64,000 nucleotides of DNA, taken from positions 2,108,001 to 2,172,000 of the forward strand of contig NZ_CP119988.1 in the NCBI RefSeq assembly GCF_029338515.1. The letters are read 5' to 3'. Within the stretch, counting starts at the first letter, position 1, and every line of letters begins with the position of its first letter. The stretch is from Haloglomus litoreum. GTDB lineage: Archaea; Halobacteriota; Halobacteria; Halobacteriales; Haloarculaceae. Positions 4,138 to 26,976 of the stretch are shown here, one piece after another. The position numbers and the translations under genes were made by a program. The notes under the pieces are model-generated. The model was not told the origin of the DNA, did no database searches, and saw nothing but the letters and a program-made list of their open reading frames with translations.

Positions 4138-4274
4138 AACTGTGGGCGGGCCCATGACAACCGACTCACTCTCCGGCCACAGAACGCCCTTGATCCGGTC
4201 CTTCGACCGAAAATACACTGCGCCCGCCACACTATCCAACATTCCCCCTGCATCGGCGCGCCATAGGCGCGCCG

Positions 4275-4442
4275 TTCACCGGCCCGAACGGAGTGAGGGC
4301 CGGCCCTTTTTTCCGAACGTTTTTTGCGCAAGCGGATTGCCGGCTACGCCGGCAATCTATTCGCTGGCCGGCAAAGCCGGCCAGCCGGTGACCGATGACG
4401 GCCGGCGAAGCCGGCCGTTGAGGTCACCCGCAGCGGAAAAAA
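4275..4442 (-). repeat. Composite intergenic element, copy 1 (downstream of mvaD)
   Basis: Read on the minus strand from just after the mvaD stop codon. It starts with a T-tract running into CCGCTGCGGGTG (4442-4425), then three short hairpins (see 4335-4418), then CTTGCGCAAAAAACGTTCGG running into an A-tract (4332-4307), then the palindrome GGGCCGGCCC (4306-4297), and finally GGGCCGGTGAA (4285-4275). The same order of blocks occurs at 25703-25863 after nuoI. The leading T-tract may act as an archaeal terminator for the preceding gene. Function of the rest is unknown. Confidence 0.7.
4335..4418. repeat. Three tandem hairpins with GCCGGC cores
   Basis: Three perfect inverted repeats follow one another, each with a 3-nt loop and a GCCGGC core on both sides. 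The first has 10-bp arms GATTGCCGGC/GCCGGCAATC with loop TAC (4335-4357). The second has 10-bp arms starting GCTGGCCGGC with loop AAA (4363-4385). The third has 9-bp arms ACGGCCGGC/GCCGGCCGT with loop GAA (4398-4418). They lie inside the composite element and resemble REP-type extragenic palindromes. Confidence 0.8.
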
Positions 4443-4448
4443 GCTCGT

Positions 4449-5411
4449 TCAGAACAGCGGGTCGTCCACGATGCGGGCGGGGCCCCCGACCTCCCAGACC
4501 CGGGTCGGGACGCCGAGGTCATCGATGGCCGCCTGCACCCGGTCGACATCCTCGCGGGTCGTGTTGACGTACACGGAGGCGCCGGTGTCGGTCGAGTAGT
4601 AGGCGTCGACACCCTCCTCGCGGAGGTCACGGACCGTCTCGAAGATCTCCAGCGTCTCGGGCTGCCAGTAGACCCAGCCCGCGGGCCCCGTCATCGTGGT
4701 GGCGGCCAGCGAGAGCGAGTCCTGCTCGGCCAGTTCGAACGCGCGATGGAAGTCACCCCCGCGGAGCGCATCCCGCATCGTCTGGAGCTGCTCGTGGACG
4801 TGCGCGAGCCGGGCCTCGAACATGTGGCTCTCCTCGGCCTCGTCGTGGGCCGCCTGGGTGTGCTTGAACGCCGGTACCTCGCAGCCGACGATGCGTAGCT
4901 CCGTCTCGAGCTCCGTCTCGAGTCGGTGCGAGCGGCAGTCCTCGTCGTTGTGGCCCGCCGAGAGGTCCGAGAACGCCCCCGTCACGGAGCGGGCGGCCGA
5001 GGCCGACCCGCGGCGTGCGATGGCCGACATCGACGGGTGGTCGAGGTCCAGGCCGGCGGCCCCGCACGCGGCGACCGCGAGCGCCGCGAACCCGGAGGCC
5101 GAGGAGCCGAAGCCGATGTTGGTGGGGAAGTTCGACTCGCTCTCCATCCGAACCCGTCTGTCCTCGTCGGCCAACTCGCGGACCCGGTCGACGACCGAGC
5201 GGATGCGCTCGGCGCCCTGACCCTCGACGGTTTCGCCGTCCACGACGTAGCGGTCCGCCTCCCGGTCCTCGAATTCGACGGTCGTCCGGGTTCGGGAGGG
5301 TGCCGTGCAGACGCTGATGGAATCGTGGTACGGATATCGGAGTTCGTGGTCGCTCATCCCGTGGTACTTGACCAGCCCCTCGATGGGGTGGGCGACGGCG
5401 GTGGCCTTCAT
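4449..5411 (-). CDS. mvaD: Phosphomevalonate decarboxylase, archaeal type
   Basis: A 320-residue GHMP-superfamily protein. It starts MKATAVAHPIEGLVKYHGM, followed by the substrate region CTAPSRTRT and the glycine-rich phosphate loop NIGFGSSASGFAALA (about residues 98-112). The C-terminal DTGASVYV segment is typical of mevalonate diphosphate decarboxylase relatives. In haloarchaea this family decarboxylates mevalonate 5-phosphate to isopentenyl phosphate in the modified mevalonate pathway, so it would serve isoprenoid lipid synthesis in the cytosol. The ATG at 5411 gives the normal family N-terminus; longer frames upstream are not coding-like. The HMG-CoA reductase of the same pathway lies at 17902-19521. 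Confidence 0.88.
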   Translation of the reverse strand: MKATAVAHPIEGLVKYHGMSDHELRYPYHDSISVCTAPSRTRTTVEFEDREADRYVVDGETVEGQGAERIRSVVDRVRELADEDRRVRMESESNFPTNIGFGSSASGFAALAVAACGAAGLDLDHPSMSAIARRGSASAARSVTGAFSDLSAGHNDEDCRSHRLETELETELRIVGCEVPAFKHTQAAHDEAEESHMFEARLAHVHEQLQTMRDALRGGDFHRAFELAEQDSLSLAATTMTGPAGWVYWQPETLEIFETVRDLREEGVDAYYSTDTGASVYVNTTREDVDRVQAAIDDLGVPTRVWEVGGPARIVDDPLF

Positions 5412-21377: not shown

Positions 21378-21785
21378 GTGAGCAATCCATGGATCGCTAT
21401 CGGGGCGCTAGCGGTCGTGGGGGTGGCGATCCCCCTGACGATGATCGCCGTCTCCGCACTCCTCCGCCCGAGTGTCCCCGAGCAGGGAAAACGAGCCGTC
21501 TACGAGTCCGGCGAGGTACCGACGGGCAACACGCGCATCCGCTTCAACATCCAGTACTACATGGTCGCGCTGCTGTTCGTCATCTTCGACATCGAGACCG
21601 TCCTCATCTTCCCGTGGACGGTCATCTACCGGGACGCCGTGAGCCAGTTCGGGCTGGCGAGCGCGCTGCTGCCGATGCTGGTCTTCATCGGCGTCCTGGT
21701 CGTCGGCCTCGCCTGGGCGTGGCGCAACGGTGCCGTCCGCTGGGTTGCGAGCCCACGGGGCGAAACCGGACAATCAGCTGACTAG
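21378..21785 (+). CDS. nuoA: NADH-quinone oxidoreductase-like subunit A
   Basis: A 135-residue membrane subunit of complex I with three helices. The conserved loop between helices 1 and 2 reads KRAVYESGEVPTGNTRIRFN, followed by the acidic membrane segment VIFDIETVLIFPW. It starts the first of two nuo blocks, with GTG at 21378, and is followed after 3 bp by nuoB. The complex transfers electrons to menaquinone in the cytoplasmic membrane. Without NuoEFG it probably uses ferredoxin or another donor rather than NADH. Confidence 0.95.
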   Translation: MSNPWIAIGALAVVGVAIPLTMIAVSALLRPSVPEQGKRAVYESGEVPTGNTRIRFNIQYYMVALLFVIFDIETVLIFPWTVIYRDAVSQFGLASALLPMLVFIGVLVVGLAWAWRNGAVRWVASPRGETGQSAD

Positions 21786-21788
21786 ATC

Positions 21789-22472
21789 ATGAGTTCCGAC
21801 AACACCACACCGACAGAGTCGACGCAGGAAGCCCGCATGGGTGACGGCGTCGACTCACGCTTCAACTCGAAGCTCCGCGAGGCGTTCGGCTCCACCCCGT
21901 TCATCCTCACCAAGTTCGACAAGTTCATGAACTGGGTTCGGGGCTCCTCGATGTTCATGCTGCAGTTCGGCATCGCCTGCTGCAGCATCGAGATGATGCA
22001 CACGTACGCGGTCAAGCACGACCTCGACCGCTTCGGGGCCGGCGTGCCGCGTGCCTCCCCCCGACAGGCCGACGTCATCATCGTCCCGGGGACCATCGTC
22101 TCGAAGTTCGCCCCGCGGATGAAGCGCGTCTACGACCAGATGCCCGAGCCGAAGTTCGTCGTCGGGATGGGCTCCTGTACCATCTCCGGGGGCCCCTTCC
22201 AGGAGGGCTACAACGTCATCAAGGGTGCCGAGGAGGTCATCCCGGTGGACATCCACGTCCCCGGCTGCCCGCCCCGCCCGGAGGCGCTGGTCTACGGCGT
22301 CGCCAAGCTCCAGGAGCGCATCGCCAACGGCGAGAGCGCGCCCGTCACCGTGAAGCCGTACGAACTGGAGCAGTTCGGCGACCTGGAGGGCGACGAGCTC
22401 GTACAGCACCTCGCCGACCAGATCGACGAGGACGACCTCGTCATGCGGTACAACTGGGCGGACTCGCCCTGA
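21789..22472 (+). CDS. nuoB: NADH-quinone oxidoreductase-like subunit B
   Basis: A 227-residue peripheral-arm subunit that holds the N2 iron-sulfur cluster. The four expected Cys ligands are visible in FGIACCSIEMM, VVGMGSCTISGG and HVPGCPPRPEAL. An acidic N-terminal extension of about 30 residues and an acidic C-terminus are haloarchaeal features. It lies 3 bp after nuoA and 4 bp before nuoCD. Confidence 0.96.
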   Translation: MSSDNTTPTESTQEARMGDGVDSRFNSKLREAFGSTPFILTKFDKFMNWVRGSSMFMLQFGIACCSIEMMHTYAVKHDLDRFGAGVPRASPRQADVIIVPGTIVSKFAPRMKRVYDQMPEPKFVVGMGSCTISGGPFQEGYNVIKGAEEVIPVDIHVPGCPPRPEALVYGVAKLQERIANGESAPVTVKPYELEQFGDLEGDELVQHLADQIDEDDLVMRYNWADSP

Positions 22473-22476
22473 TACC

Positions 22477-24165
22477 ATGAGCCTGGAAGACCCATCCAGA
22501 CCCGAGGCCGAGGCGGCACCGGTCGGCGAGACCGCCGACGGCCTCGACTACGACGCGCTGGAGGCACTGCTGGGCGACCTGGCCATCGGCCGCGAGTCCC
22601 ACATCAACGCCGAGGCGTTCGTGGTCCGGCCGGACCAGGTCGAGGAGGCGCTCCTCACCCTCCGCGACGAGGCCGGCTTCGACCACTGTTCCTGTGTCAC
22701 CGCACAGGAGTACGAGGACCGCTACGAGTCCATCTACCACCTCCGGAAGTACGACGACCCGACCCAGGAGGTCGGCGTCGTCGTGCCCACCTCGCGGGAC
22801 AACCCCGTCAGCCAGTCCGGCAACGAGGCCTACCGGACCGCCGACTGGCACGAGCGCGAGGCGTACGACCTCGTCGGCATCGAGTACGACGACCACCCGG
22901 ACCTGCGGCGCATCCTCCTGCCCGAGACCTGGCAGGGCCACCCGCTCCGCAAGGACTACAACCAGGAGCAGCCCCAGGTCGTCACGCTCCGCGAGCACGC
23001 CAACCCGCTGCAGGACGACCACCGCGGCGGCGAGGACTCGGACACGATGTTCCTCAACATCGGTCCCCACCACCCCGCCACGCACGGTGTCCTGCACCTG
23101 AAGACGACGCTGGACGGGGAGACGGTGGCCGACGTCGAATCCGACATCGGCTACCTCCACCGCTGCGAGGAACAGCTCTGCCAGCAGGGGAACTACCGGC
23201 ACCAGATCATGCCGTACCCCGACCGCTGGGACTACATCTCGGCCGGCATCCTCAACGAGTGGGCGTACGCCCGCACCGCCGAGGACCTCGCGGACCTGGA
23301 GGTCCCGGAGTACGCGCAGGTCATCCGGACCATGTCCGCGGAGATGTGCCGTATCGCGAGCCACATGCTCGCGGTCGCGACGTTCGCGCTGGACGTCTAC
23401 GGCGACTTCACGGCCATCTTCATGTACGCGATGCAGGACCGCGAGAACATGCAGAACCTGCTGGAGGACCTCACGGGCCAGCGGCTCATGTTCAACTACC
23501 TCCGGCTGGGCGGCGTCGCGTGGGACCTGCCCGAGCCCCGCGAGGAGTTCTTCGAGAAGACCCGCGACCTGCTCGACGACCTTCCGGAGCGCCTGGAGGA
23601 GTACCACAACCTCATCACGTCGAACGAGATCTTCCAGATGCGGTGTGTCGACACCGGCGTCCTCGAGCCCGAGGTCGCGAAGTCCTACGGCGCGACCGGT
23701 CCGGTCGCCCGTGGCTCCGGCGTCGACTACGACCTCCGGCGCGACGACCCGTACGGCTACTACGACGAGCTGGACTGGGACGTCGTCACCGAGGACGGCT
23801 GCGACAACTACGCGCGCGTCCTCGTCCGGATGCAGGAGGTCGAGGAGTCCGCGAAGATCATCCAGCAGTGCGTCGACCTGCTCGAGGACTGGCCCGAGGA
23901 GGAGCGCACCATCCAGTCGAACGTCCCCCGGACGCTCAAGCCCGAGCCCGATACCGAGATCTACCGCTCGGTCGAGGCCGCGAAGGGTGAACTCGGCATC
24001 TACATCCGAAGCGACGGCACCAGCAAGCCGGGCCGGTTCAAGATCCGGTCGCCGTGCTTCTCGAACCTGCAGACCCTGCCCGAGATGAGCCAGGGCGAGT
24101 ACATCCCCGACCTCATCGCGTCGCTGGGCTCGCTGGACATCGTCCTCGGGGAGGTGGACCGGTGA
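22477..24165 (+). CDS. nuoCD: NADH-quinone oxidoreductase-like fused subunit C/D
   Basis: A 562-residue natural fusion. Residues 1-175 are the 30-kDa NuoC domain, with the HEREAYDLVGIEYDDHPDLRRIL signature (shown in part: YDLVGIEYDDHP). Residues 190-562 are the 49-kDa NuoD domain with NIGPHHPATHG (about 192-202), which lines the quinone site, and the C-terminal IASLGSLDIVLGEVDR. The fusion is normal for haloarchaea. The stop overlaps the nuoH start as GTGA. Confidence 0.96.
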   Translation: MSLEDPSRPEAEAAPVGETADGLDYDALEALLGDLAIGRESHINAEAFVVRPDQVEEALLTLRDEAGFDHCSCVTAQEYEDRYESIYHLRKYDDPTQEVGVVVPTSRDNPVSQSGNEAYRTADWHEREAYDLVGIEYDDHPDLRRILLPETWQGHPLRKDYNQEQPQVVTLREHANPLQDDHRGGEDSDTMFLNIGPHHPATHGVLHLKTTLDGETVADVESDIGYLHRCEEQLCQQGNYRHQIMPYPDRWDYISAGILNEWAYARTAEDLADLEVPEYAQVIRTMSAEMCRIASHMLAVATFALDVYGDFTAIFMYAMQDRENMQNLLEDLTGQRLMFNYLRLGGVAWDLPEPREEFFEKTRDLLDDLPERLEEYHNLITSNEIFQMRCVDTGVLEPEVAKSYGATGPVARGSGVDYDLRRDDPYGYYDELDWDVVTEDGCDNYARVLVRMQEVEESAKIIQQCVDLLEDWPEEERTIQSNVPRTLKPEPDTEIYRSVEAAKGELGIYIRSDGTSKPGRFKIRSPCFSNLQTLPEMSQGEYIPDLIASLGSLDIVLGEVDR

Positions 24166-25232
24166 GCTTCCCGGTCCTCCAGAGCGGCGGCACGCCCCTG
24201 CCGACGATGCTCAAGAACCTGCTGGGCCTGCCCGACGGTCCGGCGTTCGAGTTCCTCGCGGCGCTCATCGCCTCGTCGGTCGTCGCGGCCGCCCTCCTGG
24301 GCCTGGTCGCGGTGTCCGGCATCTGGGGCAAGCGGAAGATCACGGCCGCGTTCACCGACCGCATCGCCGTCAACCGGCACGGCCCGTTCGGCCTGCTCAT
24401 CATCGTGGCCGACGCGGTCCGGCTCCTCTCGAAGGAGCTCATCGTCCCCGAGGGCGTCGACCGCCCGGCGTGGGACATCGCACCCATCGTCATGGCCGGC
24501 TCCGCGCTGCTCGGCTTCGCGGTCATCCCGATGGGGAACGGCCTGCAGATCGCCGACCCCGAGGTCGGCCTCGCCTACGTGTTCGCCGTGGCCTCCATCG
24601 CGAGCGTCGGGCTGGTGATGGCCGGCTACTCCTCGAACAACAAGTACTCGCTGCTGGGCGGCCTGCGTGCGGTCGCGCAGAACCTCGCCTACGAGATCCC
24701 GCTCATCATCACGGCGGCGTCGGTCGTCATCTTCGCCGGCACGCTCCAGATGAGCGGCATCGTCGAGGCACAGACCGCGACGCTCGTCTCCGTCGCGGGC
24801 ATCAACATCCCCTCCTGGTACGCCTTCGTCAACCCGTTCGCGTTCGTGCTGTTCATGGCCGCGAACCTGGCCGAGGTGGGTCGCAACCCCTTCGACATCC
24901 CGGAGGCGCCCACGGAGATCGTCGCCGGGTGGCAGACGGAGTACTCCTCCGTCTACTTCGTGCTCTGCTACCTCTCGGAGTTCATCCACATCTTCCTCGG
25001 CGGCGCCATCATCGCCACCATCTTCCTCGGCGGCCCGGCCGGCCCGGTCCTCCCGGGCGTGCTCTGGTTCGTCATCAAGATGGTCGCGGTCTACCTGTTC
25101 ACCCAGTGGGCCCGCTCGGCGGTGCCCCGGGTGCGCATCGACCAGCTGATCGAGATCGGCTGGAAGGGGATGCTCGTGCTGTCGTTCGCCAACCTCGTCC
25201 TCACGGCCGTCATCGTGGGAATCACCGTCTAA
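24162..25232 (+). CDS. nuoH: NADH-quinone oxidoreductase-like subunit H
   Basis: A 356-residue membrane subunit with about eight helices that joins the peripheral arm to the proton-pumping arm. Conserved loops include GPFGLL with the charged ADAVRLLSKE, and ANLAEVGRNPFDIPEAPTE, whose acidic residues form part of the quinone chamber. The start is GTG at 24162, overlapping the nuoCD stop by four bases, which implies translational coupling. Confidence 0.95.
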   Translation: MSFPVLQSGGTPLPTMLKNLLGLPDGPAFEFLAALIASSVVAAALLGLVAVSGIWGKRKITAAFTDRIAVNRHGPFGLLIIVADAVRLLSKELIVPEGVDRPAWDIAPIVMAGSALLGFAVIPMGNGLQIADPEVGLAYVFAVASIASVGLVMAGYSSNNKYSLLGGLRAVAQNLAYEIPLIITAASVVIFAGTLQMSGIVEAQTATLVSVAGINIPSWYAFVNPFAFVLFMAANLAEVGRNPFDIPEAPTEIVAGWQTEYSSVYFVLCYLSEFIHIFLGGAIIATIFLGGPAGPVLPGVLWFVIKMVAVYLFTQWARSAVPRVRIDQLIEIGWKGMLVLSFANLVLTAVIVGITV

Positions 25233-25236
25233 GACA

Positions 25237-25698
25237 ATGATCGGCGTCCTCAAATCCATGGCCACGACGATGAAGCACGCGCTCGACGGCGAGACGTTCA
25301 CCGTCGAGTACCCCGAAGAGACACCCGAGGTCTCGCCGCGCTTCCGCGGCGTCCACAAGTTCTCCCAGGAGCGGTGCATCTGGTGCCGCCAGTGCGAGAA
25401 CGTCTGTCCGAACGACACCATCCAGATCGTCACGGACGAGCAGCGCAACGGCGAGCAGTACAACCTCCACATCGGGCAGTGCATCTACTGCCGGCTCTGC
25501 GAGGAGGTCTGTCCCGTCGACGCCATCCTGCTCACGCAGAACTTCGAGTTCACGGGCGACACCAAGGACGACCTCGCCTACTCGATGGAGGAACTGAAGA
25601 ACGTCCCCTGGTACAAGGACATCGACCCGCTCGCCTCCCGCGAACCGGACCGCGGCGCGTGGATCGGCGAGGGCGAGGGCGAAGTCGACTACCAGTAG
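25237..25698 (+). CDS. nuoI: NADH-quinone oxidoreductase-like subunit I
   Basis: A 153-residue ferredoxin-type subunit with two [4Fe-4S] motifs: CIWCRQCENVCPND (about residues 46-59) and CIYCRLCEEVCPVD (about 85-98). It passes electrons from the donor to NuoB. It is the last gene of the first nuo block; the expected next gene nuoJ is 4.5 kb away. The composite repeat element begins 5 bp after its stop codon. Confidence 0.96.
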   Translation: MIGVLKSMATTMKHALDGETFTVEYPEETPEVSPRFRGVHKFSQERCIWCRQCENVCPNDTIQIVTDEQRNGEQYNLHIGQCIYCRLCEEVCPVDAILLTQNFEFTGDTKDDLAYSMEELKNVPWYKDIDPLASREPDRGAWIGEGEGEVDYQ

Positions 25699-25702
25699 CG
25701 CG

Positions 25703-25863
25703 TTTTCCCGCTGCGGGTGCTCTCGTCGGCCGGCCTGACGGCCGGCCGTCTCCGAGCACCACTTGTGCAAAAGACGTTCAGAAAAACGGCCGGCCCTCGC
25801 TTCGTCGTCGGACTACGTCCGACTGCAAGCGGGACGAAGTCCCGCCCTGCTCGGGCCGGTGAA
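25703..25863 (+). repeat. Composite intergenic element, copy 2 (downstream of nuoI)
   Basis: The block order matches copy 1 read in its own orientation: TTTTCCCGCTGCGGGTG (25703-25719), a GCCGGC-rich palindromic part including GACGGCCGGCCGTC (25737-25750), CTTGTGCAAAAGACGTTCAG plus an A-tract (25762-25786), GGCCGGCCCTCGC, and finally GGGCCGGTGAA (25853-25863). Between the last two blocks it carries two extra 3-nt-loop hairpins (25807-25823 and 25829-25845) absent from copy 1. The T-tract directly after the nuoI stop may end transcription of the first nuo block. Confidence 0.7.
25807..25845. repeat. Two tandem 7-bp hairpins with 3-nt loops
   Basis: GTCGGAC/GTCCGAC with loop TAC (25807-25823) and GCGGGAC/GTCCCGC with loop GAA (25829-25845). 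The loops TAC and GAA are the same as in the hairpin cluster at 4335-4418, though the stems differ. Confidence 0.75.
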
Positions 25864-26130
25864 ACCACGCCTTCGGCGCGGGAAGCCGCTGAGTCCTGCG
25901 GAGACTTCGTGCTCGCTTCGCTCGCACGGCCTGTCCCTAGATCCATCGGATATTGGGCACGAAAGGAGAGACTATCGGCATTAAATTTCGAAAGAGAACT
26001 GCAGCTTCTTTACTTCTATATTTTGAAGAATATGGGGCAAGTGCGGGACCGAGTGGCGCGAATCGCGTGGCTGCGTCGGCGATTCCAGACCGTGACTCGT
26101 AAGGTGGACAGGTGAATTGTCCCCTGAACG
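25864..26130. other. AT-rich intergenic region
   Basis: The part from about 25960 to 26040 is among the most AT-rich sequence in the window (ATTAAATTTCG, CTATATTTTG). It contains an inverted repeat ATATT/AATAT near 26019-26034. A second pair, GAATCGC (26060-26066) and GCGATTC (26079-26085), is spaced 12 bp apart. No protein frame is convincing. It may hold the promoter of the hydrolase gene at 26131. Confidence 0.45.
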
Positions 26131-26976
26131 ATGCCCTCCGTCCAGACCAACGACATCGAGACGCACTACGAGCGCACCGGCGACGGACCACCGGTCGTGA
26201 TGGCCCACGGCGCGGGCTACGACCACCGCTGGTGGGAGCCACAGGTCGAGGCACTCGCCGAGCAGTACGAGGTGATCACGTACGACCTCCGCGGGCACGG
26301 GCGCACCGGCGGCGGGGGCGACTGGCACCAGTACGAGATGGGGCTGTACGCGCTGGACCTGTACCGGCTCGTCGAGCGGCTCGAACTCGACGAGCCGCTC
26401 GTCGTCGGCCACTCGCTCGGCGGGATGTTCCTGCCGGAGTTCGCGGCGCGCTATCCCGACTCGGTCCGCGGGCTGGTGCTCGCGGACGCGCAGGTCACGC
26501 CCGGCGAGGGGGTCGGAAACTGGTTCTTCGGCAACGTAGTCCACCCCGCGGTCATCATGGTCAACCGCGTGTTCGGGCTGGACCGGGCGGAGGCCCTCCA
26601 GGAGGCCATCGGGAGGCTGCTCGCTGACGACGATGACGAGGAACGCCCGGCGGACGAGGACGCGGAGCTGGCGGCGTACCAGGAGTCGGTCTCCGAGCGC
26701 CACGAGCGCGAGGAGGTGACCCGGGTGCAGCGCGGGCTCCGGCGCTTCGCGGGCGGGCCGGTCGATGAGGTCACGGTCCCGACGCTCGGCGTCTACGGGA
26801 GTCTGGAGCGGAAGATGATGGCCCGGAACGCCGAGGCCCTGTCCCTCCAGCACGGGACGGCGACGATCGAGGAGATCGCCGACGCGGGCCACCTCCTGAC
26901 CTGGACGCACGCGAAAGCGTTCAACGAGGAACTGGTCGCGTTCGCCGACCGGGTGTTCGACGGGGCGGACCAGTAG
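26131..26976 (+). CDS. Alpha/beta-hydrolase
   Basis: A 281-residue alpha/beta-hydrolase-fold protein. Visible are the oxyanion region VVMAHGAGYDHRWW, the nucleophile elbow VVGHSLGGMFLPEF (Ser about residue 94), and the C-terminal ADAGHLLTWTH with the catalytic His. A lid-like charged insertion occupies about residues 150-200. The substrate could be an ester, lactone or haloalkane; nothing in the context decides. It is the first of five genes that separate the two nuo blocks. Confidence 0.85.
   Translation: MPSVQTNDIETHYERTGDGPPVVMAHGAGYDHRWWEPQVEALAEQYEVITYDLRGHGRTGGGGDWHQYEMGLYALDLYRLVERLELDEPLVVGHSLGGMFLPEFAARYPDSVRGLVLADAQVTPGEGVGNWFFGNVVHPAVIMVNRVFGLDRAEALQEAIGRLLADDDDEERPADEDAELAAYQESVSERHEREEVTRVQRGLRRFAGGPVDEVTVPTLGVYGSLERKMMARNAEALSLQHGTATIEEIADAGHLLTWTHAKAFNEELVAFADRVFDGADQ

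Follow-up and report, generated by a model that had tools for sequence, protein, structure and literature searches.

Transcription termination in archaea is usually described as resting on a bare T-stretch and the factor aCPSF1/FttA, with hairpins as an optional addition. In Haloferax volcanii, intergenic termination is signalled mainly by a T-stretch close to the end of the gene, and this signal gave 95% termination in a reporter; the motif there is the T-stretch alone, a subset of sites having hairpins upstream of the transcript end (Berkemer et al., 2020; PMC7237163). Bacterial Rho-independent terminators set a GC-rich hairpin beside a T-tract, and their two-way forms present A-tract, hairpin and T-tract on both strands. 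Another group comprises the REP and BIME palindromes and the haloarchaeal PATE and MITE elements, which are small, intergenic and multi-copy, with shared modules (PATEs are mentioned in PMC3119063).

Two composite intergenic elements in a 64,000-nucleotide stretch of the Haloglomus litoreum chromosome (NZ_CP119988.1; the window hereafter), one behind mvaD and the other behind nuoI, resemble each of these systems in part. As in Haloferax, a T-stretch lies shortly downstream of the gene end, but here it is followed by C or G and is itself the 5′ arm of a long hairpin located downstream, which is completed by a fixed A-rich 3′ block and followed by a second hairpin (compare PMC7237163). The GC hairpin beside a T-tract recalls bacterial terminators, yet on the strand of the upstream gene the order is T-tract, hairpin, A-tract rather than hairpin and then T-tract, and hairpin 1 reads T-tract, hairpin, A-tract on both strands; it is the complementary strand, with hairpin 2 and then T5 or T6, that has the bacterial order, which makes the arrangement two-sided in principle. 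Like REP and MITE elements, this is a multi-copy intergenic palindrome (26-30 sites in the genome), but instead of being scattered regardless of orthology or orientation it stands right behind stop codons, on the same strand as the upstream gene in 84 of 87 family copies, is kept at orthologous genes (nuoI, cdc48, phoU and engB), and has arms that differ between copies yet stay complementary. An earlier, sequence-only reading of this DNA had matched the element to no described family, which agrees with what was found: Rfam 15 gave no matches above the gathering score in the window and only sub-threshold, chance-like ones for both copies at a relaxed threshold, and no earlier description turned up in the literature searched, a body of papers with most subscription journals outside it.

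The two copies in the window

The claim that the element occurs twice, directly after stop codons, holds for both places, and folding compared with shuffled sequences gave z-scores of -7.4 for copy 1 and -4.9 for copy 2. Exact matches to the CTTGYGCAAAARACGTTC block are confined to these two places, with 0.02 matches at three or fewer mismatches expected by chance per window; the TTTTCCGCTGCGGGTG block, for which 0.54 are expected by chance, is weaker evidence by itself.

Copy 1 lies on the minus strand behind mvaD (4449-5345), a gene of the diphosphomevalonate decarboxylase family (Pfam MVD-like_N, E=1.4e-42), and extends from the mvaD stop codon (TGA, 4451-4449), that is from 4446, to about 4254. 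Its 5′ arm GAGC (4443-4446), right behind the stop, pairs in the RNA fold with CGUUCG, the complementary arm lying in the linker CGTTCGG with one G-U pair. Then comes a T6 tract (4437-4442), the putative termination tract of mvaD in the light of the Haloferax signal (PMC7237163), which in the folded strand is paired with A6. The hairpin 1 region (4335-4436) has an inner stem GGTGACC/GGTCACC that encloses a hairpin, CGGCCGGC-TTC-GCCGGCCG, and 3′ of the latter a nested two-hairpin module, module B (about 4385-4363 and 4357-4335). The 3′ arm of hairpin 1, CGCTTGCGC with A6 at 4325-4320, occupies 4320-4334 and is followed at 4307-4319 by the linker CGTTCGG (4319-4313) and a second A6 (4312-4307). 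The remainder (4254-4306) consists of hairpin 2, CCGGCCC/GGGCCGG (about 4304-4279), a GGTGAA linker and hairpin 3, CGGCGCGCC-TAT-GGCGCGCCG (about 4274-4254), a tail also found in other copies of the genus.

Copy 2, on the plus strand, extends from the nuoI stop (TAG, 25696-25698), at 25699, to about 25863. The gene ahead of it (25237-25698) encodes a NuoI-like 4Fe-4S subunit, recognised by its Fer4 domains and operon context; in the interval 21423-26976 the nuo operon ends with nuoI, which is followed on that strand not by nuoJ but by an alpha/beta hydrolase gene. Right behind the stop stand CGCG and T4 (25699-25706, T4 at 25703-25706), followed by hairpin 1 with its A4 tract (25707-25772, A4 at 25769-25772), in which outer arms CCGCTGC and ACTTGTG surround an inner stem GGTGCTC/GAGCACC and an inner GGCCGGCC hairpin. 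The linker GACGTTCAG with A5 (25773-25786) contains CGTTCAG at 25775-25781 and A5 at 25782-25786, and hairpin 2, again CCGGCCC/GGGCCGG (about 25788-25859), ends in GGTGAA (25788-25863 in all) and holds in its loop the two hairpins of module C (about 25804-25849), which occurs elsewhere in the genome as well.

The ordered blocks described in the sequence-only reading are present, but its start and CTTG blocks turn out to be the two arms of one long hairpin, T-tract facing A-tract; likewise, the core of copy 1 does lie at 4442-4275, but the unit continues beyond 4275 into the third hairpin.

A family with paired arms

In the window's own chromosome (4.70 Mb) the core AAAAAACGTTCAGAAAAA occurs at 26 sites with at most one mismatch and at 30 with at most two, against no sites for its reversed control. 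The two blocks by which the element had been defined mark only the subtype seen in the window, CCGCTGCGGGT/CTTGCGC, which accounts for 4 of the genome's copies. Sister species hold many copies (named matches include H. halophilum and H. irregulare), and a strict 18-letter pattern for the CGTTCA family matches in 24 of 392 haloarchaeal genomes, from three families, where the corresponding control has no matches.

The anatomy, as read from 115 copies, is a stop codon, a short arm (GAACC or GAGC), T5 or T6, hairpin 1, A5 or A6, C(G), the complementary arm, TG, A5 or A6, and hairpin 2, such that the block between the A-tracts reads CGTTCA(T)G with A5 or A6 on either side; the linker between hairpins is fixed within the family. 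The T-tract is 5 or 6 long in 109 of the 115 copies, and T and A tracts agree in length within an element (5/5 in 57 copies, 6/6 in 48). Across hairpin 1, the distance from T-tract to A-tract ranges from 26 to 172 nt, often with nested hairpins. The opposite strand reads hairpin 2 and then T5 or T6 in nearly all 115, and in Haloglomus copies hairpin 2 is followed by GGTGAA and a third hairpin ending near ATGCA. T5 tracts are rare, with 10 overlapping matches in the 64 kb window, 7 of these in the two elements. The word GAGCTTTTT, considered as a general terminator of the genus, was rejected in that role, most of its 28 sites in the genome being inside such elements.

Across the class the letters change but the base-paired layout is kept. 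At engB, whose 3′ ends were sampled regardless of motif, arms are complementary in 15 of 18 T..A..A frames, compared with a mean of 5.1 and a maximum of 11 over 300 permutations of the arms, and such a frame almost never arises in Markov-resampled DNA. About nine arm types occur at this gene alone: GAAC/GTTC, GCA/TGC, CGAA/TTCG, CGAAA/TTTCG, CAAA/TTTG, CCA(C)/(G)TGG, ACTA/TAGT, GCAA/TTGC and CGA/TCG. A generic pattern for the 3′ half, AAAAACN(4-6)TGAAAAAG, finds matches in 165 of the 392 haloarchaeal genomes, or by genus in 56 of 85, against about 11 matches overall for its reversed control; among loci picked by this half and having an upstream T-tract, 22 of 25 have arms with at least 4 complementary bases (permuted 8.5, maximum 14). 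The arm duplex of hairpin 1 reaches -17.0 kcal/mol, and -11.7 when arms are swapped between elements (permutation sd 0.27). These permutations ignore relatedness, yet compensatory changes turn up repeatedly, in different letters, across many genera. Arm-swap permutation was used because the subtypes have shifted registers, and a MAFFT alignment of 20 copies given to RNAalifold left the arms unaligned. A fixed CGTTCA as a protein-binding word required everywhere was rejected, since different arms are found in other lineages and in further families of the same genome.

Taken as a whole, this is very probably a real gene-end structure under selection throughout the class, and the proposal of an extragenic haloarchaeal element behind stop codons, with a T-tract coupled to structured nucleic acid, is borne out. 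The outcomes named at the outset as speaking against such an element were just two copies, or copies without covariation; what was found is dozens of copies with strong compensatory change.

Gene context and orthologous sites

Genes were called with a simple caller, trained on codon usage in the window; gene names at the family loci were read from C-terminal sequences, that of engB from the full sequence. The T-tract starts mostly 2-9 nt behind the upstream stop among the 87 copies, and in two of the three exceptions to the same-strand rule it lies 5-6 nt behind a tRNA-Arg gene, so the link is to transcript ends and not to translation. Of 86 next genes, 50 are convergent and 36 lie on the same strand, the latter number having led to rejection of the element as a mere spacer between convergent genes.

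Only some genes carry the element. Both nuoI and engB do so in Haloglomus and in genus g10, phoU in Haloglomus and in family f5, and a cdc48-type ATPase gene in Haloglomus, genus g16 and family f10. Orthologues of engB with the next gene very close are mostly without it, as is engB of the window's own genome, whose flank is not cleanly comparable; at one locus (L239, genome G010) the element belonging to engB is accompanied by another, with different arms, on the opposite strand.

Two other sequence families, GTCGA and GTGGG, often place the element behind a convergent gene, with hairpin 2 adjoining the end of that gene. The idea that a structural RNA gene precedes every GTCGA locus that has no protein gene upstream was rejected, Rfam finding a tRNA in 2 of 16 loci and directly before the element in one (L276). 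At some loci of these two families (L262, L265, L268, L270, L284, L287 and L291) a second copy of the final part of the adjacent convergent gene is present on the element's T-tract side, sometimes in tandem, with 149 bp units in L287 and three 163-bp units in L291. At two other loci (L033 and L174) the element stands behind a second, partial tRNA 3′ end, with an intact tRNA-Arg lying over 100 bp away, in a layout resembling the attachment site of an integrated element. Two contigs labelled DPANN/Aenigmatarchaeota, with 45% GC (L088 and L122), hold a minimal form, GAACCTTTTTACTC(C/T)CTTCGGTCGCAAAAACGTTCATGAAAAA, directly behind a sequence that looks like a tRNA with an intron and a terminal CCACCA; neither ARAGORN nor Rfam called it as a tRNA.

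Proposed role, rival explanations and nested modules

Judged from sequence, the element probably serves as a transcription terminator at gene ends, a cassette built around a base-paired core, with termination as its main job. The upstream gene would terminate at T5 or T6, 2-9 nt behind its stop, as suggested by the Haloferax T-stretch signal (PMC7237163) and by the rarity of T5 tracts and their concentration in the elements. On the opposite strand, a polymerase would meet hairpin 2, T5 or T6, the arm and a second T5 or T6, an order that should stop opposing or antisense transcription too; the placement of the GTCGA and GTGGG elements behind a convergent gene is consistent with such two-way use. 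Against this reading stand the limited set of genes that carry the element and the expectation that an archaeal terminator can do with a T-tract alone, which leaves the arms and the fixed TGAAAAA block to be explained by some further role; a strand comparison of G-T with A-C mismatches, drawing on few mismatches among related copies, pointed clearly neither way. The T-tract and the A-tract are the 5′ and 3′ arms of one long hairpin whose base is clamped by the short complementary arm pair. This hairpin would act as RNA rather than DNA, concealing the U-tract and closing off or protecting the 3′ ends of read-through transcripts; this is the likeliest reason for the arms, DNA-level roles being possible. 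More tentatively, the class as a whole may use structure-dependent 3′-end formation, in which folding would switch the U-tract between an exposed state, leading to termination or cleavage, and a hidden one, leading to read-through, the arms being free to change if they stay paired.

Some of the observations that favour a terminator would also suit a 3′-UTR element for stability or processing, in which transcription passes through hairpin 1, the folded end protects the mRNA or is cut to a small RNA, and the T-tract serves for pairing, not for termination. That the arms beyond the T and A tracts are complementary and change together, which implies that both are needed in one molecule, speaks for it, as do the strong folding of both copies and the fixed inter-hairpin linker; it is nevertheless unlikely, because T5 or T6 immediately after the stop is the main known intergenic signal in a haloarchaeon (PMC7237163), by which most transcripts should end before the hairpin, because the two copies behind tRNA genes have no mRNA to stabilise, and because families placed behind convergent genes use the other strand. 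Slightly less probable is a mobile origin, in which a REP-like or otherwise non-autonomous repeat would insert itself behind genes and multiply through transposition or gene conversion, its structure and position reflecting target choice. It would account for the multiple copies with a family-specific sequence in each lineage, the nested repeat modules, the differing hairpin 1 subtypes at orthologous sites in sister species, and the duplicated gene ends with tandem 163-bp units of some families. The sequence-only reading had entertained a mobile element, and this has lost ground: the same orthologous genes carry the unit across genera and families, orientation to the upstream gene is almost fixed, no common target-site duplication was seen in the Haloglomus family, and arms vary within a genome yet are compensated inside each element. 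Copying between sites may occur, but it explains neither position nor covariation.

GC-rich hairpins are common in haloarchaeal intergenic DNA, and correction of quasi-palindromes can mimic covariation. Some of the covariation could come from such palindrome-correcting mutation, which counts against the terminator reading, and on this ground the elements might be inverted repeats of the ordinary kind, maintained as palindromes by template switching during replication next to unremarkable T-tract terminators, with no selection for structure. That explanation is very improbable. Simple palindrome correction is disfavoured by a C mismatch beside the T/A tracts that is often kept, this mismatch and the TGAAAAA block recur across lineages, and the generic 3′ half far outnumbers its reversed-control matches. 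That a conserved, covarying design of T-tract, hairpin and A-tract recurs at the same genes in different families points to a structure selected at many archaeal gene ends, for which the arm types at engB provide natural variants for testing the role of the hairpin, and which might furnish insulated two-way terminators for haloarchaeal genetics.

The middle of the element had been thought modular, and its extra hairpins are indeed separate two-hairpin repeats nested in loops, in either orientation. Module A (TTCTGATGGGCTGCG) has 10 sites in the genome and module C (GTCCGACTGCAAGCGGGAC) has 7 at two or fewer mismatches; module B of copy 1 (4385-4335) recurs in L001, L066, L067, L014 and L024. 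The cdc48 gene carries differing hairpin 1 subtypes in sister species (L009, L050 and L085), which points to exchange of modules between copies. Modules, including those at 4385-4335 and 25804-25849 in the window, are also common to the element and to other long structured repeats with GACTGAAAGGGG ... GACGCAAGCACCGCAGGG (L194, L195 and L200-L203).
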